Both the position numbers and the translations under genes were made by a program. DNA of 64,000 nt from Bacillus sp. P14.5 (GTDB taxonomy: Bacteria; Bacillota; Bacilli; Bacillales; Bacillaceae_B), in contig NZ_NIJF01000104.1 in assembly GCF_003316765.1 (NCBI RefSeq), positions 1 through 64,000 of the forward strand. The letters are read 5' to 3'. Under the pieces are notes generated by a model. It was not told where the DNA came from and did not search any database. It saw only the letters and a list, made by a program, of their open reading frames with translations. This document shows, one piece after another, positions 1-55,480 of this stretch (positions within the stretch are counted from its first letter, which is position 1; each line of letters begins with the position of its first letter).

Positions 1-545
1 TCCAGAAGGGTGAGTGGATACATGAGTGATCGTTTTCAGGAGAGATATGTATACAGAAGGGGTGAGTGGATACATGAGTGAACGTTTTTGGTGAGATATG
101 TATCCAGAAGGGAAGGGTGGGTGTATGAGTGATCTCTTTTTGAGGAGAGATATGTATCCAGAAGGGGAGGGTGGATACACGAGTGGTCGCTTTTTAGGTA
201 AGATATGTATCCAGAAGAAGAGAGTGGATACATGAGTGATCTCTTTTGAGTCGAGATATGTATCCAGAAGAAGAGAGTGGATACATGAGTGAACTCTTTT
301 GAGGAGGGATATGTATCTAGAAGGGGTGAGTGGATACATGAGTGAACGTTTGTAGGTGAGATATGTATCCAGAAGGGGAGAGTGGATACATTAGTGCTCG
401 TTTTTAGTTGAGATATGTATCCAGAAGGGTAGAGTGGATACACCAGTGATCTCTTTTGAAGCCGAATATCTTCCCAGAAATAGAGCCTGGGTACACAATT
501 GGCCTCTGTTGAGAAGAGACATGTACCCAGATATTAAAATTCCCA
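1..545. repeat. Tandem array A, about ten units of ~53 bp
   Basis: Degenerate head-to-tail repeats fill the start of the window. The shared word ATATGTAT (or a close variant) begins at about 45, 96, 150, 203, 256, 309, 361, 413, 466 and 519, so the unit is 51 to 54 bp with a mean near 52.7. Each well-preserved unit holds two inverted repeats: ATGTATCC with GGATACAT across a 13-base loop, and ATCTCT with AGAGAT. The last two units, after about 460, have decayed. The array may continue left of the window. Long open frames on the minus strand across it have no ribosome-binding site and follow from the repetition, so I do not call a gene here. Confidence 0.9.
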
Positions 546-553
546 ACTTCATT

Positions 554-688
554 CTAATGCAGATCATTCTTCTTCTGGTTTTTCTGTTCTTTAAGTGAAT
601 TTGTCTTTGGGTTTGCGGATAACGCTTTTTTGGCAGCAGTTGAGCCCAGATTATTATTGGGAGCAGCCTGCTCATTCCAGTCAGTCAT
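554..688 (-). CDS. Small hydrophilic protein, 44 aa, unknown function
   Basis: This short frame starts with ATG at 688 and ends with TAG at 554. The product is rich in asparagine, lysine and glutamine, with no membrane segment or cysteine. A weak Shine-Dalgarno (AAAGGA) lies about 11 bases before the ATG. It follows the 69-aa gene on the same strand after a 53-base gap, so the two could be co-transcribed. Its size and composition resemble minor small acid-soluble spore proteins, but I do not recognise a family. It could be a chance frame. Confidence 0.35.
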   Translation of the reverse strand: MTDWNEQAAPNNNLGSTAAKKALSANPKTNSLKEQKNQKKNDLH

Positions 689-741
689 GGAGTAACACAT
701 CCTTTCATTCGGTGAGGAAGGACAGCTCAAACATTATGTTG

Positions 742-951
742 TTATTCACCTTTTATCAAGGAATCCAGCTTTTTCATTTCCTTGTCTTCATTGAGGTGGA
801 CAGGCAAAGAATTTTCCGGACGTGCAAAATCTTGTTTTGTATCAATGGTTACACCCATTTGGGTACCGCTGCTGTCATTGATGACAGTTTCATTTTGGCC
901 GTCAAAGTGGGGAGTTGTTTGTGAATGTTGATTCTGATTTTCGTTTGGCAT
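742..951 (-). CDS. Small hydrophilic protein, 69 aa, unknown function
   Basis: The ATG at 951 is preceded by a good Shine-Dalgarno (AAAGGAG, about 6 bases away), which is the main reason to accept the gene. The product is polar and rich in Asn, Gln, Asp and Glu, with no signal peptide, membrane helix or cysteine. I do not recognise its family. Just upstream lies a sequence that could be a forespore-type promoter (see 972-1001), so a minor spore protein is a reasonable guess. It sits beside the 44-aa frame on the same strand. Confidence 0.6.
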   Translation of the reverse strand: MPNENQNQHSQTTPHFDGQNETVINDSSGTQMGVTIDTKQDFARPENSLPVHLNEDKEMKKLDSLIKGE

Positions 952-971
952 AGATTCATCTCCTTTCTGTC

Positions 972-1001
972 TAGGATTCGAATATAGCGAGATAGATATT
1001 C
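972..1001 (-). promoter_or_regulatory. Possible forespore (sigma-G/F-like) promoter
   Basis: Reading leftwards, GAATA (1001-997), an 18-base spacer and AATCCTA (978-972) loosely resemble the sigma-G consensus (GNATR, 17-18 bases, CATNNTA). The clearer example in this window, ahead of csgA, ends in CATCCTA. The match is imperfect at the -10 start, so this is tentative. Confidence 0.25.
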
Positions 1002-1219
1002 CTGAGTTTGATATTTGGTATAATGGGTAAACTGTTTCGTTATAATTTCCGCTTTTGTAAACTTTCCAAATTCCTAATTTTCCCCCGGGATATAAACTAC
1101 TCTCTTTTCATTCTTGCCAGGGGTGGTTCACGGTAATGAAGGGAACTTTATGAACACTGATATTAAAGAGCAGAAAAGTTTAAGAAAAAGGTATAGATGT
1201 GTTTTTGTCGAATTGATAA

Positions 1220-1233
1220 AGTAATCGCTTACA
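1220..1233 (+). promoter_or_regulatory. Possible cre (CcpA) site
   Basis: AGTAATCGCTTACA differs from the Bacillus cre consensus TGWAANCGNTNWCA only at the first base. It lies directly before the Shine-Dalgarno of the DUF962 gene, where CcpA binding would block transcription. A single site of this kind can occur by chance. Confidence 0.4.
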
Positions 1234-1252
1234 TTTAAGGGGGGAGTTTATA

Positions 1253-1591
1253 TTGGACTTTAAAAGTTATGAAGAGTTTTGGCCGTTTTACCTTTCACAG
1301 CACAGCAAACCGTCAACCCGGGCATGGCATTTTGTCGGTACTAGCTTTGTGTTCGTCTTTATCCTTTTAACTGTTTTCACCATGAATTTCTGGCTTCTTC
1401 TGCTGGCGCCGGTAACCGCGTACGCTTTTGCGTGGGTCAGCCACTTTTTCATAGAAGGAAACAAGCCGGCCACTTTTGGACATCCTGTCTGGTCACTGAG
1501 AGCGGACTTTCGCATGTACCGATTGATTCTATTTGGCCAGCTTCAAAAAGAGCTGGATAAGAACCCGGAACTGAGAACAAGTGCAAAATAG
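1253..1591 (+). CDS. DUF962/Mpo1-like membrane protein
   Basis: A 112-aa protein of the DUF962 (Mpo1/YGL010w) family. In yeast, Mpo1 is a membrane dioxygenase acting in alpha-oxidation of 2-hydroxy fatty acids; bacterial members are little studied. The family's conserved histidines are visible: H17 in SQHSKP, H27 in AWHFVGT, the SHFFIEGNKP stretch and GHPVWSL. Two hydrophobic helices span about residues 29-65. The start is TTG at 1253, chosen for the strong GGGGGAG site 6 bases before it. The length is normal for short bacterial members. The next gene overlaps its end by 11 bases, so the two are probably translated together. The exact substrate is unknown. Confidence 0.8.
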   Translation: MDFKSYEEFWPFYLSQHSKPSTRAWHFVGTSFVFVFILLTVFTMNFWLLLLAPVTAYAFAWVSHFFIEGNKPATFGHPVWSLRADFRMYRLILFGQLQKELDKNPELRTSAK

Positions 1592-1931
1592 TTCAATCTT
1601 GATCAAAGGACACAGGGTAAAAGGGACCGACGTGGATACTGAAACCAGATGCAGACACTATCATACCGATAAAGACATCATTGCCATAAAATTTAAATGC
1701 TGTAATACTTATTATCCGTGCCACTTATGTCACAAAGAAACAGCAGGTCATCCAGCGGAAGTTTGGGGAGTGGAGCAGAGAGGCGAGAAAGCCATCCTTT
1801 GCGGGTCGTGCGGGCATGAACTCACCATCGATGAGTATATGAACTGTGGATCAAGCTGTCCGGAATGCAGCGCTGTTTTCAATTCGGGCTGTTCTCTTCA
1901 TTATCATTTATATTTTGAAATACACGATTGA
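1581..1931 (+). CDS. CHY zinc-finger protein
   Basis: A 116-aa protein with a CHY-type zinc finger. The signature includes CRHYHTDKD, KFKCCNTYYPCHLCHKE, then CGSCG and CPEC, giving enough Cys and His for two to three zinc ions. Eukaryotic relatives include Hot13 and the N-terminus of Pirh2; short bacterial forms of this type occur in Bacillus. The likely start is GTG at 1581, inside the end of the DUF962 gene, with only a weak ribosome-binding site, so translational coupling is likely. It has no membrane segment. A role in metal or redox handling is inference only. Confidence 0.8.
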   Translation: MQNSSILIKGHRVKGTDVDTETRCRHYHTDKDIIAIKFKCCNTYYPCHLCHKETAGHPAEVWGVEQRGEKAILCGSCGHELTIDEYMNCGSSCPECSAVFNSGCSLHYHLYFEIHD

Positions 1932-2107
1932 GGCCGTGCCAGCAGGTCTCAGTCTTTTTTGTTTTAACGTTGAGTTACCTAATAATAGGGAGCTGAATTA
2001 ACAGTTGCAGCATTGTTGATTCATGTCGAATTTTGCAAAAATATGTAGCTCTATGAATAGGAAATCGCTATGAAAAAAGAGATAACTAAATAAGGGAGTT
2101 CTGGAAA

Positions 2108-3115
2108 ATGCATCAAGCCAAGCAATTGAAGATGATTTCAATCATTGCCGGAACCGTCTTTTTGATTTTTATACTTATTGTCGGTCTTAAAGCGAAAGCG
2201 ATTTTGAAAAGTACCATAGAACATTCCGAACATGCCAAGCCGGTGACAATCCTCACTTCTGATGTGGTCACGGATCAAAGTTGGGGAAGTCTTGCCTATA
2301 AAGGGAAATTGAAGGTGGAAGAACAGTTCCCTGTAAAGGTAAATTTAATCAGCGAACTGACGGAAGAAATTGAAACGAAGGCAGCGATTCAGGAAGCCGC
2401 GGAGAGCGGTGCAAAGCTCATCATCGGTCATGGCCGTGAATTTTCGGGGGTATTTGCCGTTATGGCGCCAAAATTTCCCGGTGTCCGTTTTGTTACGCTG
2501 CACGGAGAAGCTAAGGTGCCGAACCAGACGGTTTATACTTTTGATCAGGGTGAAGTTGAATATTTCGCTGCTTTGTCTGCTTCAATGATCACCAAATCAG
2601 GGAAGATTGGACTATTGGATCCTTATGAAGCTAGAAAGAGAAACCAAAGTTTTGAAATGGGGTTGAAGCACTATATGCCGGAGGCTGAATTTTTTTATGA
2701 GACAGTCGGCAGCCGGGATGATGGAGAAAAGGCAGTAAAGCAAGCTGGCATGATGGCCGAAAACGGGGTGGATGTCATTTATGCAAAAGGCAACTCCTAT
2801 AATCGCGATGTAATTCAGTACGCTAAAGAGAAGGGCATCTATGTGATTGGATACCTGGACGACCAGTCTTATATGGGCAGGAAAACAGTGCTCACATCTG
2901 TGCTGAATGATATTCCTCAAGCTTATACTGCTATCATCGATGACTTTCTCAGTAAAGAAGGGATCGCCTCTGGAACTGTAATGCTTGATGAGAGTGACGG
3001 CGTCTACAAGCTGGCTCCATTTGGCCCCATGTTTACAAACCGTGAAAAAGAATCTATAGAGACAGAAATGAAAAGATACAAAGATGGAGAATTTACATTT
3101 CAGAAATTGAAGTGA
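2108..3115 (+). CDS. BMP-family (Med/PnrA-like) membrane-anchored ligand-binding protein
   Basis: A 335-aa protein with one N-terminal membrane helix (about residues 9-28) and a periplasmic-binding-protein-like BMP domain. The BMP stretches LTSDVVTDQSWGS, AKLIIGHGREF and GVDVIYAKG are recognisable. In B. subtilis the BMP-family lipoprotein Med is required for kinase KinD to phosphorylate Spo0A. Here the gene lies 25 bases before a sporulation-type kinase on the same strand, which supports a similar sensory partnership. Unlike Med it has no lipobox cysteine, so it should be anchored by its helix. The GGGAG site before the ATG supports the start. The ligand is unknown, and no ABC transporter genes are adjacent. 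Confidence 0.75.
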   Translation: MHQAKQLKMISIIAGTVFLIFILIVGLKAKAILKSTIEHSEHAKPVTILTSDVVTDQSWGSLAYKGKLKVEEQFPVKVNLISELTEEIETKAAIQEAAESGAKLIIGHGREFSGVFAVMAPKFPGVRFVTLHGEAKVPNQTVYTFDQGEVEYFAALSASMITKSGKIGLLDPYEARKRNQSFEMGLKHYMPEAEFFYETVGSRDDGEKAVKQAGMMAENGVDVIYAKGNSYNRDVIQYAKEKGIYVIGYLDDQSYMGRKTVLTSVLNDIPQAYTAIIDDFLSKEGIASGTVMLDESDGVYKLAPFGPMFTNREKESIETEMKRYKDGEFTFQKLK

Positions 3116-3140
3116 AAAAGTTCATGCGGGAGGGAAATCG

Positions 3141-4928
3141 ATGAATAAGATGCTTGGAAAAATATCATTCCGGAACAAGATTACTTCCATTCTCCTTTTC
3201 ATCACCCTGCTGCTAAGCGGCTATTCACTTGTGCTTGTGGAATCGATCGATCAGGTGAATGAAATCGGTACGGCCATCAGATCGGAGAGTCTTCCGGAAG
3301 TGCTCTGGCTTACCCATTGGGAAAAGGAACTGGCTGTAAAAGAGCACTTGGCGGAAGGTTATTTGCTGGACAGTTTATGCTGCGGCTTCCTGGAATCTTA
3401 TGACCAAGTTCAGGAAAAGAGCGATCAGGAGCTGATTTCTCAATATGGAGATATTCCTGAAGAATTAACAGAACTCAGGAATGAGATCAGCCTGCTCGAT
3501 TTTAATGTGGAAAACAAGTTCAAGGGTCTCATCCTCTACAATAATGAAAGAGGGGCGGAAGATTTTATACGGCATGAACATCTTCCGCTTATCAGAGGGC
3601 TGCGTGCAGAAATCAGCAATGAGCAGACGATTATCCTGGCCTCGTTGAATGAACAATCAGAAAAAATTCCTGACATAATCAAAAAATCCTTATGGCTGCT
3701 CATCATTCTTACTTCAGCGGCCGTAACTATATCTTTCATGGCATCCTATAGAATCAGTGCAAGCCTGACGAATCCGTTAGAGAAATTGACGGACGGGGTG
3801 AGGCAGATCAAGCAAGGAAAGTATGGCCTTCTTTTAAAAGATAACAGCCAGCTGGAGCTTGAGGATTTGACCTCTTCCATAAATGAAATGTCAGTACAAT
3901 TGAAATCTTCCTTTCAAAAAATCATCAAGGATAAATCCTATCGGGAGCAAATTATGAATACTCTGCCTGTCGGAATCATCACGGTAGATGAAAGGAAGAA
4001 CAGCACTCTTAATGATTGGGCCCGGAAGTTGCTGCTGATTGATGAGGACGAGCTCAGTTCGCAAAGCAGGGGAATTGAAAATAGAGCATTTTGGTCTATC
4101 TTCCTTTCGGAACAAGAGTGCAGGAATAAGAAAGTCATATACACAAAGAATAATGCCGACTACACACTATTAGTATCACAGACAGCTTTCTTGAATAAAG
4201 AAGAGATTGAGGCCGGGCGGATCTTTTACTTCGTGGATATTACTGATACAGAAAAACTGGAAAAGCGAATCCATCAATCAGAAAAGCTTGCTGCAATTGG
4301 GGAGATTGCTGCGGGTGCAGCTCATGAAATTCGTAATCCTTTAACAGTCATACACGGATTTATATCTCTGATGGGAAGTTCCATTTCCAGCGATAAAAGA
4401 GAACAGTTTCGTATTCCTTTATTAATGAAGGAAATTGAAAGAATCAACTTTATCATTGAAGAAATGCTGATGCTTTCAAAACCGGGAGCACCCATTAGGC
4501 AAAAAGTGTTTCTCGAAGATATTCTCGGTGAAATTCTCCCTCTGATCAGGAAGCAGACAGAAGCAAGGGTTTCGTATGATATCCATATGGAAAAAGTTTC
4601 GATTGCGGCAGATGTTCACCAGGTTAAACAGGTGTTCCACAACTTGATACGAAATAGCGTGGAGGCAATGGAGGGCGAGGGGACCATCAGTATCACTTCC
4701 CAAGTAAAAGATAATCACTACGTCATTTACTTTAAAGATGATGGACCGGGAATACCAAAACAGGATTATAATTCTCTCTTCCAGCCCTTCTATAGTACAA
4801 AGGTCAATGGCACAGGCCTCGGGTTGACGATTGTCCAAAGAATCATTGAAAATCATGGAGGAACAATAGAAGCAGATCCAAGGGTTGAAAAAGGAACATT
4901 GTTCATCATTACATTGCCTGTTCTTTAA
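3141..4928 (+). CDS. Orphan sporulation-type sensor histidine kinase
   Basis: A 595-aa membrane kinase. Order: membrane helix (about 12-30), extracellular domain to about 180, second helix (about 182-203), HAMP (about 205-258), PAS (about 268-375), HisKA and HATPase_c. The phosphoacceptor is H395 in AHEIRNPLT, followed by the HGF motif typical of kinases feeding the Spo0F/Spo0A phosphorelay. The N box (HNLIRNSVEAM), G1 (DDGPGIP) and G2 (GTGLGL) are intact. No response regulator is adjacent, as expected for KinA-E. The extracellular domain contains a vicinal Cys pair (LCCGF). The start has a GGAGGG site. The BMP gene just upstream is the likely sensing partner. Confidence 0.85.
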   Translation: MNKMLGKISFRNKITSILLFITLLLSGYSLVLVESIDQVNEIGTAIRSESLPEVLWLTHWEKELAVKEHLAEGYLLDSLCCGFLESYDQVQEKSDQELISQYGDIPEELTELRNEISLLDFNVENKFKGLILYNNERGAEDFIRHEHLPLIRGLRAEISNEQTIILASLNEQSEKIPDIIKKSLWLLIILTSAAVTISFMASYRISASLTNPLEKLTDGVRQIKQGKYGLLLKDNSQLELEDLTSSINEMSVQLKSSFQKIIKDKSYREQIMNTLPVGIITVDERKNSTLNDWARKLLLIDEDELSSQSRGIENRAFWSIFLSEQECRNKKVIYTKNNADYTLLVSQTAFLNKEEIEAGRIFYFVDITDTEKLEKRIHQSEKLAAIGEIAAGAAHEIRNPLTVIHGFISLMGSSISSDKREQFRIPLLMKEIERINFIIEEMLMLSKPGAPIRQKVFLEDILGEILPLIRKQTEARVSYDIHMEKVSIAADVHQVKQVFHNLIRNSVEAMEGEGTISITSQVKDNHYVIYFKDDGPGIPKQDYNSLFQPFYSTKVNGTGLGLTIVQRIIENHGGTIEADPRVEKGTLFIITLPVL

Positions 4929-4979
4929 TAAGAGCAGGCTTTTGCGGTTTTGGTGGTTTGAAAGCCTGTTGAATGCATA

Positions 4980-5020
4980 TGAGCCAGGCTCAAATCGCAG
5001 GAAATAAGCCTGGCTCAAAT
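4980..5020 (+). terminator. Hairpin with TGAGCCAGGCTCA palindromes
   Basis: TGAGCCAGGCT at 4980-4990 pairs with AGCCTGGCTCA at 5007-5017 and is followed by a T-rich stretch. It lies about 50 bases after the kinase gene and may end its transcript. The same 13-bp palindrome TGAGCCAGGCTCA makes up the tandem array at 19344-19510, so this is also a dispersed repeat copy. Confidence 0.6.
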
Positions 5021-5109
5021 ATTTTGTCTTTCCATTGTGTTAAAATTGATAAAAGAAGTGCCGGAACTGTGATGAGGTTTCAGTGAATTTTGGCCATAGA
5101 GGTGAAATC

Positions 5110-5340
5110 ATGTATTTAACAGTGAAAGAATTGGCAGACTATCTGTCGCTTCCAGAGGTATACATCGAAGCGTTAATAGAGCAGAAAAAAATCAGAGCCG
5201 TTCATGATGGTGAGCAGTATCTTGTCAACAAAGACAATTTTCAAAATTATCATGAACAGCTGGAAACCTATAAAAAGCTTTTTGAACAGTGGCAGAATGA
5301 ACCGATTCCTGAGGACCCTGATATTAAAGATGAGGATTGA
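5110..5340 (+). CDS. Excisionase-family DNA-binding protein
   Basis: A 76-aa protein with an N-terminal MerR-like winged helix of the excisionase family: MYLTVKELADYLSLPEVYI, then a recognition helix and wing ending near QYLVNK. The acidic C-terminal tail has no known role. I chose ATG at 5110 because GAGGTG lies 5 bases before it; an upstream in-frame start at 5083 lacks a site. Chromosomal Bacillus proteins of this size are common and not tied to a phage, and no integrase is nearby. The target is unknown. Confidence 0.7.
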   Translation: MYLTVKELADYLSLPEVYIEALIEQKKIRAVHDGEQYLVNKDNFQNYHEQLETYKKLFEQWQNEPIPEDPDIKDED

Positions 5341-5444
5341 AGGCACCTAGGGACACGCCATCTCAAATATGATAAAATACTGACGTATGGTATAGTTTTA
5401 TTGGTAAATTTATTCCACCGCATAACAAAGTTAAAAGGAGAGTC

Positions 5445-6380
5445 ATGATGGAAAAAGTATTGATTTTTGGACATAAGAATCCTGATACAGATACAATCTG
5501 TTCTGCTTTGGTATACGCAGACTTGAAAACACAATTGGGTATGAAAGCTGAACCGGTCCGCCTTGGAGAAATCAACGGCGAAACGCAATATGCTCTTGAC
5601 CATTTCAAAGTCGAAGCTCCCCGTCTTGTTGAGAAAGTGGCAGCAGAAGCAAAGGAAGTTATCCTTGTTGACCATAATGAGCGCCAGCAAAGCGCTGATG
5701 ACATTGATGAGGTAAGGGTCCTTGAAGTAATCGATCACCACAGAATCGCAAACTTCGAAACAAGCGATCCATTATACTACCGTGCGGAGCCAGTTGGCTG
5801 TACGGCGACGATTTTGAATAAAATTTATAAAGAAAAAGGCTTGAGCATCAGCAAAGAAATGGCAGGTTTGATGCTGTCTGCCATTATTTCTGATTCCCTT
5901 TTGTTCAAATCTCCAACTTGCACAGACGAAGATGTGGAAGCAGCACGGGAGCTTGCTGAAATTGCAGGCGTGGATGCTGATGAGTACGGGCTTGAAATGC
6001 TTAAAGCAGGAGCGAGCTTAGGTGATAAGACGTCGGCAGACCTGATTTCCCTTGATGCGAAAGAGTTTCAAATGGGAAGCTATAAAGTTGAAGTGGCACA
6101 AGTAAATGCGGTTGACACAGATGAAGTCCTTCAACGCCAGGGCGAGCTGGAGGAAGCTATTTCCAAAACGATCTCTGATAAAGGCTTGGATCTTTTCCTG
6201 TTTGTGACAACGGATATCCTTAACAGCGATTCAGTTGCGCTGGCATTAGGAGAAAAAACCGAAGCGGTGGAAAAAGCTTATAATGTTCAGCTGAACAACA
6301 ACACTGCGGTACTAAAGGGCGTCGTTTCACGTAAGAAACAAATTGTTCCTGTACTGACAGACACATTGAAGAATATGTAA
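5445..6380 (+). CDS. ppaC: Manganese-dependent inorganic pyrophosphatase
   Basis: A 311-aa family II (DHH) pyrophosphatase that hydrolyses pyrophosphate to two phosphates in the cytoplasm, using Mn2+. Metal-binding motifs are clear: [10 protein letters not shown] near the N-terminus, VDHNE and DHHRI in the DHH domain. The C-terminal DHHA2 domain ends with SRKKQIVP, containing the basic substrate-binding residues. Length is normal. AAAGGAG precedes two consecutive ATG codons (5445 and 5448); either could be used. A strong terminator follows and the gene seems to be transcribed alone. Confidence 0.97.
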
Positions 6381-6384
6381 TACA

Positions 6385-6418
6385 AAAGAACCGGCAGAAG
6401 GAGTCTGCCGGTTCTTTT
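6385..6418 (+). terminator. Rho-independent terminator of ppaC
   Basis: AAGAACCGGCAGA and TCTGCCGGTTCTT form a 13-bp perfect stem with a 5-base loop, followed by a short T-rich run. Confidence 0.9.
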
Positions 6419-6539
6419 AATGCGTTTTTATCTAAAAAATGGTGAGAAAACTCCCTCTTCAAGCGTGTGAAGGGTATAGCCCAACGGTAAGGGGGAGATG
6501 AATCGCCTGCCTATGGTCTCTATTAAAAAAACTTTGGAA

Positions 6540-6553
6540 GAAACATATGTTCC
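6540..6553. promoter_or_regulatory. LexA (SOS-box)-like palindrome before tnpB
   Basis: The palindrome AACATATGTTC (6542-6552) matches the core of the Gram-positive LexA/DinR box CGAACATATGTTCG except at the outer positions. A TATAAT-like hexamer follows at 6574-6579, then GGAGGTG before the tnpB start. The position suits repression of the transposon gene by LexA. The outer mismatches keep this uncertain. Confidence 0.4.
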
Positions 6554-6605
6554 CAAGGTACCATCTTTCTTGGTATAATTACTACAAGGAGGTGAAACCA
6601 TTTGA

Positions 6606-7772: not shown

Positions 7773-7852
7773 CCAAAAATGAACCAATAGGTTTGTGTTC
7801 TTAGGAATCCCCCGCTTCAAGCGACCTGTAAGGGCGGTAAGTGGTGGGTAGT

Positions 7853-8638: not shown

Positions 8639-8640
8639 GA

Positions 8641-9453: not shown

Positions 9454-9457
9454 GAGT

Positions 9458-18574: not shown

Positions 18575-19337
18575 ATGCCAAGAAGAAAGAGAATATGGTT
18601 TCCAGGAGCAATGTATCACATAACATCACGCGGGAACCGAAAAGATACTATCTTTCATGAGAAAGATGACTACATTTATTATCTCCATCTGCTTGAAAAA
18701 GCTCAAAAACGTTTTCCTTTTAAACTCCACTCTTATTGCCTCATGCCTAACCATATCCACTTATTGATAGAAGGCTGTTTGCGCATAAATTGTTGCTTTT
18801 CGGAAAAATCCCAAGTGCCGGATTTTTCCCCTGGATACTAGGTTCTCTCTCTGAACAGGAAGAGAAGCTCTTTTCTTATATACTAACCAGGATTTTTCTG
18901 GTGAAAGAGGACGTTTTTTTTTGGAATTCATATTGAATAGCAACAAAGTTTACGAAAAGAGCCTAATAGAAACGGAAAAACATTCACCCTCAATAATTAT
19001 CCATTACATCCACTCCCTTTATGCCAGGTATTTTAATAACATATATAAATATATTGGACATCTGTTCCAAAACCGCTTTGACGATAAAATCATTAAAGAT
19101 TGGAAGCACATGATGGATACAAGCAGGTATATCCACTTAAACCCAGTGAAAGCGGGAATGGTAAAAAATCCAGAGAAATATCCTTGGAGCAGTTATAAAA
19201 CTTTCATAGCAAACTATGAAGAGCCAATAATAAACAGTAATAAAATCATTGAGAATCTTTGCGGTGGATCTAAAAAAACTTACAAGAGTTATGTGGAACT
19301 AAATTTAAGTAAAGGCAGCTTTTATAACAAGTTGTAA
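18575..19337 (+). pseudogene. REP-associated tyrosine transposase (RAYT), split by a MITE
   Basis: The N-terminal half (18575 onward) has the Y1/HUH transposase start PGAMYHITSRGNRKD and the HUH motif MPNHIHLLIE. The C-terminal half resumes at about 18963 with LIETEKHS and includes SLYARYFNN, GHLFQNRFD and SRYIHLNPVKAG. Between them lies a foreign ~190-bp element (18773-18963). Leu-Ile-Glu is encoded on both sides, as expected from a target duplication. Removing the element and one copy gives a normal RAYT of about 190 aa. The two pieces are unlikely to make an active enzyme. RAYTs are single-copy domesticated relatives of IS200 transposases linked to palindromic REP sequences; such repeats begin 7 bases after the stop. 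Confidence 0.9.
18773..18963 (+). mobile_element. MITE copy A, inserted in the RAYT gene
   Basis: A non-coding element of about 190 bp. Its ends are imperfect inverted repeats: GGCTGTTTGCGCATAAATTG at the left, and GGCTCTTTTCGTAAACTTTG read inward from the right, both followed by TTGC. An internal hairpin has arms GGAAAAATCC and GGATTTTTCC. TTGATAGAA on the left and CTAATAGAA on the right flank it and look like a 7-9 bp target duplication with two changes. Related copies lie at 49447-49602, 50500-50583 and 30540-30620. It needs a transposase from elsewhere. Confidence 0.85.
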
Positions 19338-19343
19338 TTGTGC

Positions 19344-19510
19344 TGAGCCAGGCTCAAAAGGGTGGAACTGAGCCAGGCTCAAAAAGGTGGATCTGAGCCA
19401 GGCTCAAAAAGGTGAATCTGAGCCAGGCTCAAAAAGGTGGATCTGAGCCAGGCTCAAAAGGATAAATCTGAGCCAGGCTCAAAAAGGTGGATTTGACCCT
19501 GGCTCAAAAA
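19344..19510 (+). repeat. Seven 25-bp tandem repeats with TGAGCCAGGCTCA palindrome
   Basis: Units begin at 19344, 19369, 19394, 19419, 19444, 19469 and 19494, an exact 25-bp period. Each of the first six has the perfect palindrome TGAGCC-A-GGCTCA followed by AAAAGG and a short variable part; the last is degenerate. The array starts 7 bases after the RAYT stop codon. Another copy of the palindrome is at 4980. There are no unique spacers, so this is not CRISPR. It looks like the REP partner of the RAYT. Confidence 0.95.
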
Positions 19511-34782: not shown

Positions 34783-34990
34783 CCAAAAGTAAAACTCACT
34801 GTCCCTTAAGTTGCTCTTCCAGTCCGTTATCCTGCCAAAAAGTGAGTCTCACTGGCCCGTAACTCCATTATGCGGTCCGTAATCCTGCCAAAAAGTGAAT
34901 CTAATTGGCCCGTAACTCCCTATTTCGGTCCGCTATCCTGCACGAAAAATAAACTCACTGGCCCGTAAACCAGTTTTCCGGGTTCTTATT
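34783..34990. repeat. Tandem array B, four ~53-bp units
   Basis: Units start at 34783, 34835, 34888 and 34941, with lengths of 52, 53 and 53. Well-preserved units read CCAAAAAGTGA...CTCACTGGCCCGTAACTCC...GGTCCG.AATCCTG. AGTGAG and CTCACT form a small palindrome in the second unit. The repeat lies between the phosphoesterase and the RsbR-like gene. It shares no clear sequence with arrays A and C, only the unit length. The rest of this 323-base gap (34991-35081) holds no recognised element. Confidence 0.85.
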
Positions 34991-45341: not shown

Positions 45342-45355
45342 TGGATGGAAATGCA

Positions 45356-47613: not shown

Positions 47614-47634
47614 TCCTGTTGACAGGTGTATCTT

Positions 47635-48897
47635 TTATAACCTGACTTCGCTGGAATCGAGCGGCTGAAGGGCATTGGTTTCATCTATATAGATGAACGC
47701 GTCGTATCTTTCGGACATGATAGAGGGAACGTAATTGCCGTATTGCTCGTACTGCGCCCGGTATACCACACCGATTGCTCTGTGGCCAAGAGGTGTATGG
47801 AACAGCTTCCTATTTTCATCATTGAAAAGAAGTATTTGATTGTAATTTCCAGCATTGTGCATGGCATCTTCCCAACTGCCTCTTCTTGCAGGGGGAACCT
47901 CCATTTTTTCGAGATTCACTCCCCATTCTTCTGAGGCGATGACTGTCCCGCGATGTGTTCCGAAGCCCACAATGTAGACCTCTTCTTTGGGGTTCTGTTC
48001 ACGGAGGATCTGCCCGACATTGGTCATCCCGGCTTCCATCATATCAGTCGCCCTGGCATCTCCAACATGTGTATTATGTTCCCAAACAATCACTTTTGCA
48101 TTTTCACCGTAAAATTTTATGACGGCGTTCAATGCTTCCACCATATGTTCATCCCTGATATTCCAGGACTTTTCATCATTTGATACCATTGCCCTGTAAT
48201 AATGCTCGGCATTTGCCGCAACCATTGCATTCACTTCAAGATTCAGTTCCTGTTCGTGGCTGCCTGCATAATGTTCCTTGTCAGCTCTGATAGTGGAGAG
48301 GAGCCCCGTTATTTCCTCTGTGCAATTTTCACCGAGATATCCGGCGGATACAGCATACTCCTGAGGTTCTTTATTAAAAGGTTCAAAGCAGGAGAAAGCT
48401 TTCTTGGCTTTTTCCAAATGTGGTGAGTTTGTTTTTTCAAGGAATTGAATGACCTCTTCCATTGATTCCCAGAGGCTGTAAACGTCGATCCCATAAAAAC
48501 CTGCTTTCTGTTTTGAAGCGGTCCTGGCATTGTACTCTTTCAGCCAGGATATTAAATCGACTACCTCTTCATTCGCCCACATCCATGCCGGCCAGCGTTT
48601 GAAGGACTGCAGGACATCTCGCGGATTAACCGTTTCCTCAAATCCTTTTATATACTTGTTCACACTTTGTGAAGCTGGCCAGTCTCCTTCCACTGCAATG
48701 ATATTGAACCCTTTTTCCTCAATCAGTCTTTTTGAAATCTCTGTCCTGATTTTATAATATTCCGATGTCCCGTGAGAAGCTTCCCCCAGAAGGACGATCC
48801 GTGAATCGCCAATGTCGTCGATTATCTTGTCGAGGTCCTGCTCGGACTTATATGCCGTTGAATGTTTCTGTATTGATTGAATAACAGACTCGTTCAT
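47635..48897 (-). CDS. Erythromycin-esterase-family protein
   Basis: A 420-aa protein of the Ere/succinoglycan-biosynthesis esterase fold. Conserved active-site regions are present: LLGEASHGTSEYY, AVEGDWP, WEHNTHVGDARA and YIVGFGTHRG. Known B. cereus relatives of this type do not hydrolyse erythromycin, so macrolide resistance should not be assumed. The natural substrate is unknown. The following gene lies 17 bases upstream on the same strand, so they are probably one operon. Confidence 0.9.
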   Translation of the reverse strand: MNESVIQSIQKHSTAYKSEQDLDKIIDDIGDSRIVLLGEASHGTSEYYKIRTEISKRLIEEKGFNIIAVEGDWPASQSVNKYIKGFEETVNPRDVLQSFKRWPAWMWANEEVVDLISWLKEYNARTASKQKAGFYGIDVYSLWESMEEVIQFLEKTNSPHLEKAKKAFSCFEPFNKEPQEYAVSAGYLGENCTEEITGLLSTIRADKEHYAGSHEQELNLEVNAMVAANAEHYYRAMVSNDEKSWNIRDEHMVEALNAVIKFYGENAKVIVWEHNTHVGDARATDMMEAGMTNVGQILREQNPKEEVYIVGFGTHRGTVIASEEWGVNLEKMEVPPARRGSWEDAMHNAGNYNQILLFNDENRKLFHTPLGHRAIGVVYRAQYEQYGNYVPSIMSERYDAFIYIDETNALQPLDSSEVRL

Positions 48898-48914
48898 TTT
48901 AAAACCTCCAAGAC

Positions 48915-49289
48915 TTAATTGTATTTCGCATCATAGCTATTATCCCCTGCATGCATCGAAAGAAGAGCAGCCGCATAACCGACCAGCCTGTTCACGAGTT
49001 CATCTCCGATCGCATACACGAGATGGTGCAGTTCCTGTTTGTGCAATTTAGGATCATCTAAAATGATCGTAGTATTTACAAAGACGTCCTTGTTTCCGAG
49101 TAGATCATAATGGACAATCACCTTTCCAGCAGCTCCGCCCGTCCGGGGATCCTGAAAATCCGGGAGGAACACGTACCATTCCTCCGCACTGGGGGAACGG
49201 AAGTTTTTCGTGAATGTCATTCGCTCGAGCTGCCTGTCAATATCTGCTCGTTCGTCTTCACTTAATAAATCATACCTGGGGTTCTCCAT
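48915..49289 (-). CDS. Conserved hypothetical protein, 124 aa
   Basis: A soluble protein without signal or membrane helix, first gene of a two-gene unit with the Ere-family gene. I chose ATG 49289, with AGGTG about 9 bases upstream, over GTG 49301. It contains EEWYVFLPDFQDPRTGGAAGK and a helical, His-rich C-terminal half (HKQELHHLVYAIGDELV). I do not recognise the family. Confidence 0.7.
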   Translation of the reverse strand: MENPRYDLLSEDERADIDRQLERMTFTKNFRSPSAEEWYVFLPDFQDPRTGGAAGKVIVHYDLLGNKDVFVNTTIILDDPKLHKQELHHLVYAIGDELVNRLVGYAAALLSMHAGDNSYDAKYN

Positions 49290-49690
49290 TTTGTTTTTCA
49301 CACCTTTAATGATATCGATACTTCTATATTGCCCTAAGATAAAAAGTCTATAGTATGTAAATAGGCTAAATTCAGCAAAGGTAAACGGGGTAATTGTGGA
49401 AAGGAGGAGAGAGGAGACGAAGGAAGAAATTCAACTATTATCATTAGGTTGTTTTCGCATATATTGATGCTTTCGAAAACTCCCAAGAGCCGGATTTTTC
49501 CCGGATACTAAGGTTTTACTCTCTTAACAGAGGGAGCAGCCCTTTTCCTTCTTGCTTACCAGTGTAATTTCGGGATAGCAACAAAAGTTTACGAAAAGAG
49601 GCTTTCATAAAGATTTATGAATAGTCAGCACTCCTTTATGGTTACTCTTCTGTGAGAAAGGGAAAACACTGCTCAAAAGGAGGTCACTCT
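49290..49690. other. Intergenic region containing MITE copy B
   Basis: Four hundred bases between divergent genes hold the MITE at 49447-49602 and otherwise no gene. A ribosome-binding-like GGAGG run at 49403-49415 is not followed by a believable frame. Confidence 0.55.
49447..49602 (+). mobile_element. MITE copy B
   Basis: About 156 bp with ends GGTTGTTTTCGCATATATTG and, read inward from the right, GCCTCTTTTCGTAAACTTTT. It has the core CCCAAGAGCCGGATTTTTCCC and GGATACTAAGG shared with copies A and D, and the GCTTACCAG shared with copy C. No clear target duplication is visible. Confidence 0.8.
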
Positions 49691-50416
49691 ATGGATTGGA
49701 CGTCACTGGGGCTGGCGGTCTTCCTTGCGCTGGTCCATGTTTCGGCAAGGAGAATGGAGTTTTTGGAGTCGATTCCAAGAAGCAAGTTTCTTTCGATAGC
49801 GGGCGGGGTGTCCGTGGCATACGTTTTTATTCATATCCTACCTGAGTTAAAGGAACACCAGGAATCGATAGCGGGGACGGCTGAAGTGCTTGCGTTCTTG
49901 GAGCACCACGCATATTTGATAGCGATGCTGGGACTCGTTGTATTTTATGGGTTGGAAAAGGCGGTGCAGGATTCCAGAAAGCTGAATACTGAGGAAAAAG
50001 ATAAGCCGGCACGATCAGCGTTTTGGGTTCATATAAGTTCCTTCTTCATTTACAACGGTTTGATTGGATATCTTCTGGTCCATCGGGAGGAAGAAGGACT
50101 GGTCAACCTGTTTTTATACGGTGCTGCGATGGCGCTTCACTTTATTGTCGTTGATTTTGGCTTGCGGGAGCATCACAGGGACCGGTATGACAGAGAGGGG
50201 CGCTGGGTCCTTGCTGCCGCCATCGTGATCGGCTGGGCTATCGGGATTCTTACAGAAATCCCGGAAGCTTTGCTGGCACTGTTGTTTGCTTTCCTGTCGG
50301 GAAGTATTATCCTGAACGTGTTGAAAGAGGAGATCCCGGAGGAGCGCCAAAGCAGTTTTTGGGCATTCACGGCAGGCGGGATTGCCTATGTTATCTTGCT
50401 ATTGGGAATAGGTTAA
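49691..50416 (+). CDS. Integral membrane protein, possibly ZIP-like
   Basis: A 241-aa protein with about seven membrane helices. It has VFIHILPELKEHQ in the second helix region, HFIVVDFGLREHH in the middle, and a last part (LTEIPEALLALLFAFLSGSI) loosely like the helices of ZIP metal transporters. The His and Glu in membrane segments would suit metal transport, but the canonical ZIP motif HNxxD is absent. I chose ATG 49691 with AAAGGAGG upstream. I cannot name a function. Confidence 0.7.
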   Translation: MDWTSLGLAVFLALVHVSARRMEFLESIPRSKFLSIAGGVSVAYVFIHILPELKEHQESIAGTAEVLAFLEHHAYLIAMLGLVVFYGLEKAVQDSRKLNTEEKDKPARSAFWVHISSFFIYNGLIGYLLVHREEEGLVNLFLYGAAMALHFIVVDFGLREHHRDRYDREGRWVLAAAIVIGWAIGILTEIPEALLALLFAFLSGSIILNVLKEEIPEERQSSFWAFTAGGIAYVILLLGIG

Positions 50417-50421
50417 AACTT

Positions 50422-50448
50422 AGGCAGCTTTAAGGCTGCTTTTTTTAT
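50422..50448 (+). terminator. Terminator
   Basis: GGCAGC and GCTGC form a short stem around TTTAAG, followed by seven T, directly after the membrane protein gene. Confidence 0.8.
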
Positions 50449-50499
50449 TGTATTATAAATTATTCTTCTGTGGATAACTTAAAGCTATGATATCCTCGT

Positions 50500-50583
50500 C
50501 TACTGGTAAGCAAGAAAGAAAAGAGTACTCACTCTAAGGCGGAGGGAAATCCGGCTCTTGAGATTTTTTCGAACGCAAACAGC
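50500..50583 (-). mobile_element. MITE copy C, truncated
   Basis: On the minus strand it starts GGCTGTTTGCGTTCG and includes TCTCAAGAGCCGGATTTCCC and TTTCTTGCTTACCAG. The right inverted repeat is missing. It lies about 900 bases from copy B, in the opposite orientation. Confidence 0.7.
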
Positions 50584-50694
50584 CATTTATTAAAATGCAT
50601 AGAACCTTGCTGATAAGTGCCTCTGATTACGTTCCTTATATTTAGGCTCTTACCAAATTTATATTTTAAAAAATTTTTCGTAGAGAGCCTAATA

Positions 50695-50895
50695 AATAGA
50701 GGGAAAAATTCCCCTTATTTACTGAAAAGCACTGAAAATAGCTTAAATAGAGGGAAAATCTCCCCTTATTTGAATTAAAATACTAGAAAATAGGTTCTTT
50801 TTTTCATATAAGGGGAAAAACTCCCCCTATTTAGTCCAATATGAGCTGAAATTTGCAATTAGAGGGAAAAACTCCCCTTATTTTACTGGGAATAT
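50695..50895. repeat. Four spaced near-palindromes (GGGAAAAA / TTCCCC)
   Basis: Near-palindromic words of about 26 bp recur with AGGGAAAA at about 50700, 50751, 50812 and 50873, so the spacing is 51, 61 and 61 bp. Each reads AATAGAGGGA, A-rich centre, TCCCCTTATT. The sequence between them is AT-rich and varies. This is a looser array than A, B and C. Confidence 0.75.
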
Positions 50896-50900
50896 TAATC

Positions 50901-50985
50901 AAGGAGGCTTCCGCTGTAAAGCCCACTCCATCGTACGCCATCCCAGCGGAGTCGCACACCTTGAACTGAAATCAATACTCTTTTT
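50901..50985. repeat. Degenerate copy of the GC-rich dispersed repeat
   Basis: CAAGGAGGCTTCCGCTG, CAGCGGAGTCGCACACCTTG and ACTGAAATCAA resemble parts of the element at 11845-11985. The hairpin is eroded. The other parts of the 767-base gap (50417-51183) hold the terminator, MITE copy C and the palindrome array, and I see no gene. Confidence 0.5.
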
Positions 50986-51247
50986 TGGACCTGAAGGGAA
51001 AAAGAATCGCTCTTTGAAGTGAGGGATTCCGCTTTTAAAATTATTTTTGGACTTTGTCAGTGCCCTTTTTTTCTCTGAGGAACATTAGCCTGTCGGGGCT
51101 GTGCAAGGTGCTTCCGCTCTTGTTCAGCTTTAAAGCGTTAAAAAGATTCAAACTATTTTTAAAAATAGTGAAAACCCTATATAATGAATAGAATAAAATA
51201 CGGATTCCGAAATAAAAGAGCGCATCCAGGATTATGGGGGAACACAG

Positions 51248-52989
51248 ATGAAGAAAATGTTTTCTTTTTGAAGAATTACCGTCTGGCAATGGGGATTGCC
51301 TGGACATTGATGCTGATAGAACTGGCGGTGGAGCTTCTGCTGCCATTGTTCATGGCGAGGATTATTGATGAAGGAATACTGCAAAAGGATATATCGGCTG
51401 TCTGGTATTGGGGCGGAATCATGTCTGCACTGGCACTGGCTGCTTTTGCCGCAGGGGTGACAAATTCCTTTTTTGCCTCTCATGTAAGCCAGGGGGCCGG
51501 CTATGATATCAGGAAAAGCGTCTACGAGAAAATCCAGAACTTCTCCTTTGCGAACTTCAGCAAGTTTCCGTCTTCATCACTGATCACAAGGCTGACCAAT
51601 GATGTGACACAGCTGCAAAATTCAATTTTTACCGCCCTAAGAATCATGATGAGAGCGCCGCTTCTTGTCATCGGGGGAACCATCATGGCACTTATTGTGG
51701 ATGTGAAGCTGGGAATCATCCTGCTGCTTGTCATCCCATTTATCGTGTTCTTCCTCTTATGGGTGCTGAACAGCGGATGGACAATGTTCAAATTTGTTCA
51801 GCAGAAGCTTGACTCCGTGAATGATGTCATCCAGGAGAACCTTAGAGGAATGCGGATCATCAAGGCCCTCCTCAGGGGAAATCACGAGAACAACCGATTC
51901 ATACAAGCAAACAAAACACTGATGAAAAAAACTGTGAATGCCTTGAGGTTGATGGAAACCATCATGCCTGTACTGTTCATCGTGATGAACGGAAGCATCC
52001 TTTTCATTTTGTGGATGGGGAATATCGAGGTGGCAAACGGTGATGCCGCAGTCGGTGATGTCGTGGCGATTGTTAACTATGCCACTAGAATCACAGGGGC
52101 TTTCTCTGTGTTTTCCTTCATTATCATGAGTTTCTCAAGGGCAAGGGCTTCTGCAGGCAGGATTGAAGAAGTGCTGGAGACTGACATTGACCTGGTTGAT
52201 TCAGAAGACAGTGATCCCAAGCTTGCTGTTAAAAATGGAAAAATCGAGTTTAAGGATGTTTCCTTTCATTACCCGGGAACAAAGACTGATGTGCTAGATG
52301 AAATCAATATGAAAATCGAACCGAGAGAGATCATTTCAATTTTAGGTGCGACAGGATCGGGGAAAACATCGCTGTTTCAGCTGATTCCCAGGTTGTATGA
52401 GGCAACAGGAGGTAGAATCTTGATTGATAATGTTGAGATCGAGAAATACAAATTGGCAAACCTGAGGAAGAGTATAGGTTTCGTTCCCCAGGAAGCACTG
52501 CTGTTCTCAGGAAGCATAAAAGAAAATATTGCGTGGGGCAAGGAAGAAGCGACAATGGAGGAAATCGTCGAGGCGGCCAAGTCAGCACAAATCCATGATC
52601 TAATTGAAGGCCTTCCGAGCGGTTATGATACTGTACTCGGTCAAAAAGGTGTCAATCTTTCAGGAGGCCAGAAACAGCGGCTTTCGATTGCGCGTGCCCT
52701 GGTTAGAAAACCCAAAATCCTGATTCTTGATGACAGCACGAGCGCGCTGGATTTAAAAACGGAATCCAAGTTGATCCAGGCAATAGGCGCTTATTCCTGC
52801 ACCATTTTAATTGTGACGCAGAAGATCAGTACGGCCATCCAGTCTGATAAAATTTTTCTGATTGAAGATGGAAAGGTCATTGTCGAAGGAAGTCATGAGA
52901 AATTACTAAATGAGTCCCCGCTTTACGGCAAGATCTTTCAATCTCAATTTGGAGAGGAGAACCTCGAACATGCCAAGGCATTACAGTAA
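51248..52989 (+). CDS. Heterodimeric ABC exporter, subunit 1 (start frameshifted)
   Basis: A ~580-aa half-transporter: six membrane helices (about 1-315), then an ATPase with GATGSGKTS, LSGGQKQR, ILILDDSTSALD and LIVTQKIST. The usual Walker B glutamate is Asp and the switch His is Gln, as in the degenerate half of heterodimeric exporters such as BmrC. The natural start is ATG 51248 (GGGGGAA 7 bases upstream, product MKKMFSF...). From it the frame hits a stop after 7 codons; one extra T in TTTTTG at about 51265-51269 restores it. The main frame is open from 51184 without a good start site. The lost T may be an assembly error. Confidence 0.85.
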
Positions 52990-54751
52990 AGAACATAAAA
53001 GCAAGCCGAAGATCAAGAATTGGAAAAGTACAGTGGGACGGATCTGGCGCTATCTCTCCAAAGAGAAGGGGCTCTTGGGGCTTGTCATTCTGATGGTGGT
53101 CCTCAGTTCTTTCTTGGGACTCCTTGGACCGTTCCTGGTCGGGATGGCAATCGACGACTTTATTGTAACGCGTGACTCAAGCGGGCTGATGCAGCTCATT
53201 CTTGGATTGATCGTCGTCTATATCGTATATTCTGCCGCGATGTGGCTGCAGGCCTACTGGATGATCGGGATTGCACAGAACACAGTGTATCGAATGAGAA
53301 CCGAGCTTTTTCAGCAATTGCACAAGCTGCCGATCCCATTCTTTGACCGCAGACAGCATGGAGAACTGATGAGCAGGGTCACGAATGATATGGAAAATGT
53401 AAGCTCCACGCTCAACAGCTCAGTGATCCAGATATTTTCCAGTATATTGACTCTGATAGGAACCGTCGGTGTCATGCTGTGGCTGAGCCCGTTATTGACG
53501 CTTATCACCATGCTGATCATTCCGGCCATGTTCCTTGGCCTTAAATGGATCACAAAGAGGACCGGAAAGCTTTTCAAAGAAACACAGAAAAATCTTGGAG
53601 ATCTCAATGGGTATATTGAGGAGACGGTTTCCGGCCAGCGGATCGTCAAGACATTTTCCCAGGAAGAGAAAGTCATGGATGATTTTCTAATGAAAAGCGA
53701 CAGGTTAAGGGTTTCAGCCTATTGGGCTTCCACTTATTCAGGCTTCATTCCTAAACTGATGAACATGCTGAATAACCTAAGCTTTGCAGTCATTGCAGGG
53801 GTAGGAGGCATATTGGCGGTCCAGGGTATCATCACCATCGGGGTCATCGTCATCTTCACAGAATACGCCCGCCAGTTCACACGGCCTCTGAACGACTTGG
53901 CGAACCAATTTAATACTCTTCTATCGGCTGTTGCCGGTGCAGAGAGGGTATTCGAAATACTTGATGAAGAAAAAGAAGAGAAGGATGAAGGAGCGGCAGT
54001 TGCTGTTGAAGGAATCAATGGTGGAATCGAGTTTTCCCATGTCACCTTCTCCTATGATAAAAAAACAAAAACAGTCGAAGATATTTCCTTTAAAGCGGAA
54101 CCGGGACAGACGATTGCGCTCGTCGGACCGACGGGTGCCGGGAAAACGACCATCACCAATATCCTGTCAAGGTTCTATGATCATGACGAAGGCACCATCA
54201 CTATAGATGGGAAGGATCTCCTCGATATCAAAAGGGAAAGCCTGCGGAAAAATATGGGGTTCGTGCTGCAGGATTCATTTCTTTTCCAGGGAACCATCAG
54301 GGAAAATATCCGATACGGAAAATTGGAAGCCAGTGACCTTGAAGTGGAAAGAGCAGCAAGGGAAGCGAATGCCCATTCCTTTATCATGAAACTGCCTGAA
54401 CAATACGATACGGTCCTCTCTCAAGATGGTGGCGGGATAAGCCAGGGGCAAAAACAATTGCTGTCCATTGCCAGGGCCATTCTGTCAGACCCGTCCCTTC
54501 TGATTCTGGACGAAGCCACCAGCAGTATCGATACTGTGACCGAAGTGAAAATACAGGAGGCGCTTCAGCGGTTGATGGAAGGCAGAACAAGCATCGTCAT
54601 CGCCCACCGGCTTAACACCATCCAGTCGGCCGACCAGATTCTCGTGCTGCAGAGCGGCAGAATCACGGAAAGAGGTTCACATGTTGAATTGCTGCAGCAA
54701 AAAGGTTTTTATTATGAACTGTACAACAGCCAGCTGAGGGAAATCAGCTGA
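52970..54751 (+). CDS. Heterodimeric ABC exporter, subunit 2
   Basis: A 593-aa half-transporter with six helices (about 35-340) and an ATPase with GPTGAGKTT, ISQGQKQ, LLILDEATSSID and VIAHRLNTI. It supplies the intact Walker B glutamate and switch His, while its signature ISQGQ is degenerate. Together with subunit 1 this gives one normal and one degenerate ATP site, the known pattern of BmrCD and TM287/288. ATG 52970 overlaps the previous gene by 20 bases; GAGGAG lies 10 bases upstream. These exporters extrude drugs or lipids; the substrate is unknown. Confidence 0.93.
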   Translation: MPRHYSKEHKSKPKIKNWKSTVGRIWRYLSKEKGLLGLVILMVVLSSFLGLLGPFLVGMAIDDFIVTRDSSGLMQLILGLIVVYIVYSAAMWLQAYWMIGIAQNTVYRMRTELFQQLHKLPIPFFDRRQHGELMSRVTNDMENVSSTLNSSVIQIFSSILTLIGTVGVMLWLSPLLTLITMLIIPAMFLGLKWITKRTGKLFKETQKNLGDLNGYIEETVSGQRIVKTFSQEEKVMDDFLMKSDRLRVSAYWASTYSGFIPKLMNMLNNLSFAVIAGVGGILAVQGIITIGVIVIFTEYARQFTRPLNDLANQFNTLLSAVAGAERVFEILDEEKEEKDEGAAVAVEGINGGIEFSHVTFSYDKKTKTVEDISFKAEPGQTIALVGPTGAGKTTITNILSRFYDHDEGTITIDGKDLLDIKRESLRKNMGFVLQDSFLFQGTIRENIRYGKLEASDLEVERAAREANAHSFIMKLPEQYDTVLSQDGGGISQGQKQLLSIARAILSDPSLLILDEATSSIDTVTEVKIQEALQRLMEGRTSIVIAHRLNTIQSADQILVLQSGRITERGSHVELLQQKGFYYELYNSQLREIS

Positions 54752-54756
54752 AAATG

Positions 54757-54797
54757 AAAACAGGATGTCCAGCAAGTGCTGGACATCCTGTTTTTTC
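54757..54797 (+). terminator. Terminator of the ABC exporter operon
   Basis: AAACAGGATGTCCAGC and GCTGGACATCCTGTTT form a long perfect stem with a short loop, followed by T. Confidence 0.95.
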
Positions 54798-54909
54798 AGA
54801 TTGGGGAGAAACCGAGCGAGGGGATCTGATGGATTGCAAAGACGAAAAACCTAATTGCAGTGATCTTCAAAATGTGTTTTAGGACCGATTGGGTTGGGAT
54901 ATTTGGGTT

Positions 54910-55480
54910 TAAGAGTTCTTCAGAATCCGTGTAAAGGCCACTACGGTTGAAAAATACAGGTGAAGTGTTCCATAGAATCCCGTCTAAAGACCAGTTGGGC
55001 CGAAAAATACAGGAGAAGTGTTCCTTAGTATCTCTGTAAAGACCACTTGAGTAGAAAAACTCAGGAGAAGTGTTCCATAGAATCCATGTAAAGACCACTT
55101 GAGCAGAAAAACTCAGGTGAAGTGTCCCATAGAATCCCGGCTAAAGACCAGTTGGGCCGAAAAATCCCGGTGAAGTGTCCCTTAGAACCCGTGTAAAGAC
55201 CACTTGAGCAGAAAAACTCAGGTGAAGTGTTCCATAGAATCTGTGTAAAGACCACTACGGCCGAAAAATCCCGGTGAAGTGTCCCATAGAATCCATGTAA
55301 AGACCACTTGAGCAGAAAAACTCAGGTGAAGTGTCCCATAGAATCCCGTCTAAAGACCAGTTGGGCCGAAAAATCCCGGTGAAGTGTTCCTTAGAATCCG
55401 TGTAACGAACACTTGGAACTCAAATCCGAGCCGATGTGTTCTATAAGCCCCGCCTAAAGGCACCATGGGCAGAAGCCCTG
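54910..55480. repeat. Tandem array C, about ten ~52-bp units
   Basis: The word GAAGTGT (or GATGTGT) begins at 54962, 55015, 55067, 55119, 55172, 55224, 55276, 55328, 55381 and 55433, so units are 52 or 53 bp, mean 52.3. Units alternate between two types after GACCA: GTTGGGCCGAAAAATCCCGG and CTTGAGCAGAAAAACTCAGG. In both a small stem can form around GAAAAA, with A-T replaced by G-C at one pair. The flanks to the previous terminator and the next gene (54798-54909, 55481-55622) hold no gene. Confidence 0.92.

Follow-up and report, generated by a model that had tools for sequence, protein, structure and literature searches.

Three tandem arrays, here called A, B and C, lie in a 64,000-nucleotide stretch of Bacillus sp. 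P14.5 DNA (hereafter, the window), which is contig 28 of the source assembly, from base 1 (the draft amounts to 4.87 Mb in 121 contigs). Their periods are 52–53 bp, and the same period recurs in arrays of many other sequence types of the same genome. The interpretation that we favor, with a confidence just short of an even chance, is that these arrays are satellite-like rows of phased pseudo-dyads, putative protein sites repeated every 52–53 bp, a length equal to five turns of the double helix.

The period was surveyed in forty 20-kb stretches from seven contigs of the Bacillus sp. P14.5 genome, 800 kb in all or about a sixth of the genome. With Tandem Repeats Finder (TRF, score ≥100), 28 of 36 arrays showed a period of 52 or 53 bp (15 and 13 arrays, respectively), one a period of 51 and one of 54, so that 30 fell within 50–54 bp. 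The remaining six had periods of 21, 25, 33, 36, 101 and 126 bp, and no array was found at 45–49 or 55–60 bp in the 800 kb. A-type arrays are over-represented in this sample, because its seven contigs came from a list of matches to array A, but when they were removed (10 arrays, all at 53 bp) 18 of 26 arrays were still at 52–53 bp. A period survey had been proposed in a first-pass annotation of the window, made from its sequence alone, and its outcome, a sharp 52–53 bp peak over many sequence types, is the one anticipated there; it sets aside chance as the origin of the common period. Coding repeats were set aside since 52–53 is not a multiple of three; six arrays of this genome overlap open reading frames (ORFs) predicted by crude longest-ORF calls, and of these the 54-bp array of the survey (stretch L024) appears coding. 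When internal units were counted in 120 arrays, many of them selected through A-type matches, 889 of 1339 measured 53 bp and 332 measured 52 bp (mode 53, mean 52.75); a coding-looking 54-bp array (L139) was excluded from the unit counts, and one array was counted twice (L046:14750 and L149:10).

Arrays are sparser outside this genome. Among 36 stretches (about 561 kb) of other genomes of the genus and the order, 4 of 17 arrays were at 50–54 bp, one of them coding-like. There were none among two arrays in 79 kb of the congeneric genomes G050 and G051 chosen independently of array A, and none where one array was found in 180 kb of later stretches of genomes G008, G018 and G034. In one set of 60 stretches, 51 had been taken for their A matches and nine otherwise (four from G034, three from G008 and two from G018).

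Concerning the arrays of the window, the unit lengths given in the first-pass annotation (51–54, 52–53 and 52–53 bp for A, B and C) are in agreement with both TRF and anchor-to-anchor spacings. Array A (1–545, plus strand) was reported by TRF at 1–459 with period 53 and 8.7 copies, and its anchors are 51–54 bp apart (mean 52.56). The copies at 459–545 (plus strand) are degenerate, and the tail is taken to extend to about 532 because homologous arrays align up to there. Its 53-bp unit consists of a T-run, about 9 bp, ATGTAYCCA, 11 bp, TGGRTACAT and about 10 bp. In an example dyad, read from the sequence, the left half-site is ATGTATCCA (205–213, minus strand) and the right one TGGATACAT (225–233, plus strand), separated by a variable 11-bp loop (214–224); the arms are conserved within A-type arrays. 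Array B (34783–34990, minus strand; TRF 34822–34968, period 53) has 2.8 clear copies of a 53-bp unit with half-sites GTTACGGGCC and GCGGTCCGT, and its two anchor spacings are 53 and 53 bp. Its dyad is weak and it is the least certain member of the set; a similar unit occurs in stretch L158. Array C (54910–55480, minus strand) has about 10 copies of a 52-bp unit; TRF reported it at 54922–55416 (period 52, 9.5 copies), reaching 55474 with a separate 157-bp row, and two anchors gave spacings of 52–53 bp (means 52.30 and 52.38). Its arms, AAGTGGTCTT and GGGACACTT, are imperfectly inverted, the left one varying (ACTGG/AGTGG) and the right one being constant. That the arrays are intergenic holds for B and C, each flanked by long ORFs, while A is the start of the contig and its left neighbor lies outside it. 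The absence of sequence similarity claimed for the three is true pairwise, but all fit one weak common layout. Nor do they stand alone in the genome: 80 matches to A correspond to at least 38 places, a lower bound since 40 of 55 candidates were scored, and weak homologues were found for C (three) and B (two).

The common layout, derived from 121 unit consensuses at their best dyad axis, is a T-run, about 9 bp, an arm, a loop of about 11 bp, the inverted arm and about 10 bp. The place of the T-run is descriptive only, because the axis was chosen by an arm score with a bonus for an opposite T-run. An inverted repeat beyond chance was present in 17 of 30 non-A types (shuffling, p ≤ 0.05; 1.5 expected), and the 26 types with arms of at least 8 pairs have in common a half-site core whose distance to the dyad is constant. 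After removal of A-like types, the 19 types with such arms and no more than 50% identity still shared a weak core of 3.55 bits, as compared to 1.35 ± 0.31 (maximum 3.21) in a null model of the same symmetry, in which none of 5000 trials was as high. Since this core is shared across dissimilar types, A and C are probably types of one superfamily and not independent inventions, as is, with less certainty, B (2.8 copies, weak dyad).

Inside arrays, variability is two- to threefold lower in the half-sites than in the loops. In 64 A-type arrays, heterozygosity was 0.07 in the arms, 0.20 in the loop and 0.15 in the outer spacer, the arms being at 0.01–0.09 in 14 of 18 positions; in 37 arrays of other types the corresponding values were 0.08, 0.15 and 0.15. 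The two arms of A-type units vary independently, so the halves look as if they were read separately. At the most variable arm position (±9, T or C on the left and A or G on the right), 784 distinct units gave 375 T-A, 175 T-G, 146 C-A and 80 C-G pairs; both sides were independent within units (Fisher p 0.36), with no compensatory change. A stratified test of covariation within arrays yielded z = 1.67 under one coding and −0.3 under another. Constrained half-sites that vary independently were seen in the A-type and also, with fewer units, in the genus of G034; elsewhere, too few of the arms vary for their independence to show. It is worth noting that all 188 exact A-type dyads counted in 1.25 Mb were located in arrays, that outside arrays no A dyad occurred even allowing one mismatch per arm, and that single A half-sites outside arrays were fewer than expected by composition (13 vs. 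23). This rules out that the dyads are the scattered operators of a regulator. Edge decay was not seen among internal units.

The unit length is also tighter than the indels within arrays predict. Off-mode units amounted to 197 of 1284, with 0.029 length changes per substitution, and drift at this rate would give a standard deviation of 1.6–2.2 bp after 26–52 substitutions per unit; the value observed over 30 types was 0.56 (20 types at 52 bp, seven at 53 and three at 51), a comparison that is only indicative because those types were preselected at 50–54 bp. A genus in another family of the order has arrays built alike, with the unit length kept and the sequence different. Genome G034 and its congener G065 contain arrays whose half-site is GACAAT (70 and 44 matches, or 32 and 18 places by our grouping; 145 and 98 exact dyads), a type for which 6 of 16 genomes in that genus gave matches, and the unit was 52 bp in all eight distinct arrays read. 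The contig of G065 begins at dnaA, and 14 of its 18 matched 52-bp array loci were in the origin half (p 0.015); this origin-proximal bias is just a lead, from one genome and one type with a length rounded to 4.9 Mb.

Concerning distribution, three of the 36 genomes of the genus have the A-type (Bacillus sp. P14.5, G050 and G051), and the same three have the C-type. The exact A dyad was found 113 times in the P14.5 genome and not at all in 40 other genomes searched, a set without G050 and G051. Where both flanks were located in relatives, 26 of 35 array-by-stretch rows had a 52–53 bp array between them, a proportion that overstates the sharing of positions because the stretches were chosen for A-type arrays; at some orthologous sites elsewhere there are two units, about one, or no unit at all. 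Unit consensuses of orthologous pairs were 77–92% identical in 13 of 26 cases, 60–74% in nine and 42–48% in four, and in these last the type has been replaced. The protein beside array C has its closest named relatives in Rossellomorea (R. vietnamensis nearest, 95%), which places the genome in that genus, near R. vietnamensis. Arrays of 51–52 bp were found at 5 of 31 loci of relatives of the gene beside C: two in R. vietnamensis, in the position of C (L056 and L059, a drifted array with 60–62% identity), and the others, with other sequences, in Bacillus sp. SG-1, B. salacetis and Cytobacillus kochii. Some A-type places stand at contig ends, 13 of at least 38 as counted by eye (the window start and contigs 1, 2, 7, 14, 20, 23, 25, 33, 36, 39, 52 and 78 of the same genome), so that the arrays explain part of the fragmentation of this assembly; contigs 25 and 28 may be joined within a single array.

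It seems reasonable to interpret the arrays in the following way. The site would be a pseudo-dyad in which a loop of some 11 bp separates two inverted half-sites, each about 9–12 bp long and read by one subunit of a putative dimeric DNA-binding protein. With a spacing of five turns, neighboring dimers would lie on one face of the helix, where they could bind cooperatively and build a nucleoprotein array. Copy number would go up and down through slippage or unequal exchange, while the half-site type would shift with the specificity of the putative protein, or small protein family; the arrays would thus be resized and retyped in place. One mechanism at five helical turns, as put forward in the first-pass annotation, is in agreement with the 52–53 bp peak, with the same unit in another family and with the tight period, and the phase-bound protein suggested there fits the independently varying half-sites; the premise that the arrays are unrelated was in part wrong, as they share layout and core. 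Common ancestry, considered there as a refutation, is rather a part of the answer, given the shared dyad layout, the half-site core of the 19 types and the existence of dispersed families; together with in-register recombination, it explains part of the uniformity of the period.

Several observations weigh against protein-read dyads. The zone of the T-run is no less variable than the spacers (0.18 in the A-type, 0.15 in other types), and the choice of the dyad axis rewarded the T-run. Inverted repeats in 13 of 30 types were no better than chance, so that the period is shared more widely than the dyad, and the preselection of those types narrows the spread of their lengths. The covariation coding with the higher z leans toward pairing of the arms. 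G·T mismatches in the arms exceeded A·C mismatches (225 vs. 169 array-by-column events, p 0.006; 66 vs. 41 by array), which hints weakly at pairing, and the two arms change in step from one type to another, as would also follow from hairpins. Finally, in 20 of 26 orthologous pairs another array of the P14.5 genome (the best of about 70) was nearer than the orthologue. Exchange within the genome, and not only local constraint, therefore shapes the units, which weakens the protein-site interpretation and strengthens that of a selfish element.

A selfish satellite is unlikely, although it is the alternative to which we give the most weight. An enzyme cutting or copying at the half-sites would amplify the units, and its reach would set the 52–53 bp step. 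Only units with intact half-sites would then multiply, which suits the confinement of A dyads to arrays; the A and G034 types are dispersed families, and sites with no, one or two units in one species have many in another. On the other hand, no linked enzyme gene was seen. Among 93 flanking proteins (93 of 97 listed flank ORFs, four being left out), no Pfam family had more than three members, considering the best 25 of 154 families, and a recurrent neighbor gene was thus rejected. The serine recombinase (resolvase) domain is no better as a partner, since it occurs in all 36 genomes of the genus, with two copies in P14.5 and 1–10 in the others. The Y1 transposase (Y1_Tnp) was found in 11 of 11 genomes with 1–6 copies, and was no commoner in array-rich ones: five array-rich genomes have 1–4 genes and six congeners without the A-type 2–6.

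Less probable is common descent without present use, in which an ancient family would have spread and changed in sequence, its period being maintained by in-register recombination. The half-site core common to the types and the drift and replacement of types at orthologous sites are as expected from it, and in-register homogenization by itself would tend to preserve a period. Nevertheless, within-array indels predict a wider spread of periods than the one seen in the preselected types, the half-sites are less variable than the loop, and two families of the order have the same unit length with different sequences. Both this inertia and the selfish satellite partly overlap with the protein-site interpretation.

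A hairpin function is unlikely, and we give it the least probability of all: arms pairing in a transcript or in single-stranded DNA, as terminators, stabilizers or transposase sites, would explain the inverted repeats, the G·T excess, the joint change of arms between types and the lean of arrays to convergent gene pairs, but it is opposed by the absence of compensatory change in the A-type, by the mostly non-complementary bases beside the core in the G034 genus (A-A or T-T in 13 of 18 distinct loops), by T-runs about 10 nt away from the arms and without strand bias, and by the lack of any Rfam match to the arrays. The lean was measured on the 58 of 72 P14.5 arrays with both neighbors called: 35 gaps were co-directional, 17 convergent and six divergent, as compared to 433, 112 and 125 among all 670 gaps (convergent excess, p 0.03; divergent deficit, p 0.15). 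The T-run was on the same strand as co-directional genes in 14 cases and on the opposite one in 19. Rfam gave no match in the window and two in six further loci, both ordinary and outside the arrays (a SAM riboswitch at L046 7567–7722 and a ribosomal protein L13 leader at L155 6310–6364), and a known structured RNA was set aside on these grounds. A plasmid or phage origin was also rejected, as the A-type had no match in plasmids and phages and the C-type had none in plasmids.

Helically phased dyad repeats bound by a dimer are found in iteron and partition-site arrays and in the res sites of serine recombinases, whose subsites I and II are about five turns apart. In those systems one cognate protein acts at a single locus, whereas dozens of loci and many types are found here. 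The nearest kinds of interspersed repeats known to us are STAR, BOX and REP, and none has been shown to fit. STAR elements of Staphylococcus have a 14-bp GC-rich motif and spacers of 40–44 bp, 54–58 bp in all, with one consensus (PMC3532100). Like the arrays here, they are intergenic direct repeats of Bacillales at many loci, with variable copy number, locus-specific sequence and unknown function (PMC3532100). The arrays here differ in their 52–53 bp length, in the inverted half-sites of many of them and in their many sequence types, and some of their positions are common to several species, while no sharing of STAR positions between species was found in what could be consulted of PMC3532100. 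The STAR motif (13–14 bp, TNTGTTGNGGCCC-type; PMC3532100) was absent from all 125 arrays of period 50–54 at 0–1 mismatch and present in five, including array C, at two mismatches; as for the STAR period given there, 54–58 bp, 1221 of 1339 internal units are 52–53 bp here. The arrays thus depart from STAR in both motif and period.

BOX elements of Streptococcus pneumoniae are also interspersed, with boxA and boxC modules around a tandem boxB module whose number varies by locus, and an RNA fold is predicted for them (PMC3049150). BOX modules were not noticed in the flanks of the few arrays read, no search having been aimed at them. A REP has a GTAG or CGTC tag next to its stem of 5–13 bp, and Firmicutes are not listed for them in the accessible portion of PMC3733652; REP, BIME and REPIN elements resemble the present arrays in their many intergenic copies, inverted units, families that vary from species to species and tandem clusters (PMC3733652). 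The A unit differs from them by its strict period and non-covarying arms, and by the absence of either tag from the A-type consensus of 28 P14.5 arrays, the only type considered in this respect. No description of the present arrays was found in a literature search, to which subscription journals were largely out of reach.

Other repeats were observed alongside. In the window, a 25-bp array with 6.7 copies and the palindrome GAGCC-A-GGCTC (19343–19510; a similar one at L034 5839–6140) lies downstream of a short Y1 transposase-like stretch with a 92-amino-acid frame (18608–18772), and both may be the remnant of a REP/RAYT pair. Arrays of a different sequence style, with periods of about 20–21 or 40–42 bp (two or four helical turns), occur in other Bacillales (L108 700–778, L112 5253–5354, L115 12271–12368, L075 118–431 and L057 6112–6220). 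An element of 124–126 bp is found in tandem in several genomes of the genus, several copies having a CAGCTCC(A/G)G-like core (L047 5909–6139, L107 7321–7582, L108 15730–16005, L117 15164–15577, L122 14403–14789 and L140 2354–2601).

If the 52–53 bp arrays are rows of phased protein sites, the likeliest role for them is structural, the anchoring or organizing of chromosome segments, rather than ordinary gene control. A broader proposal, which we make tentatively and hold to be clearly less than evenly probable, is that they are a counterpart of satellite DNA in Bacillales, where a putative family of dimeric proteins of changing specificity would bind dyads spaced by five turns, the phase being kept while the sequence turns over. 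Should the period indeed be kept while the sequence changes, these arrays would report a rule of DNA geometry that is missed by searches grouping repeats by sequence, and they would provide a natural system in which to follow how fast-evolving bacterial repeats and the proteins that bind them change together.

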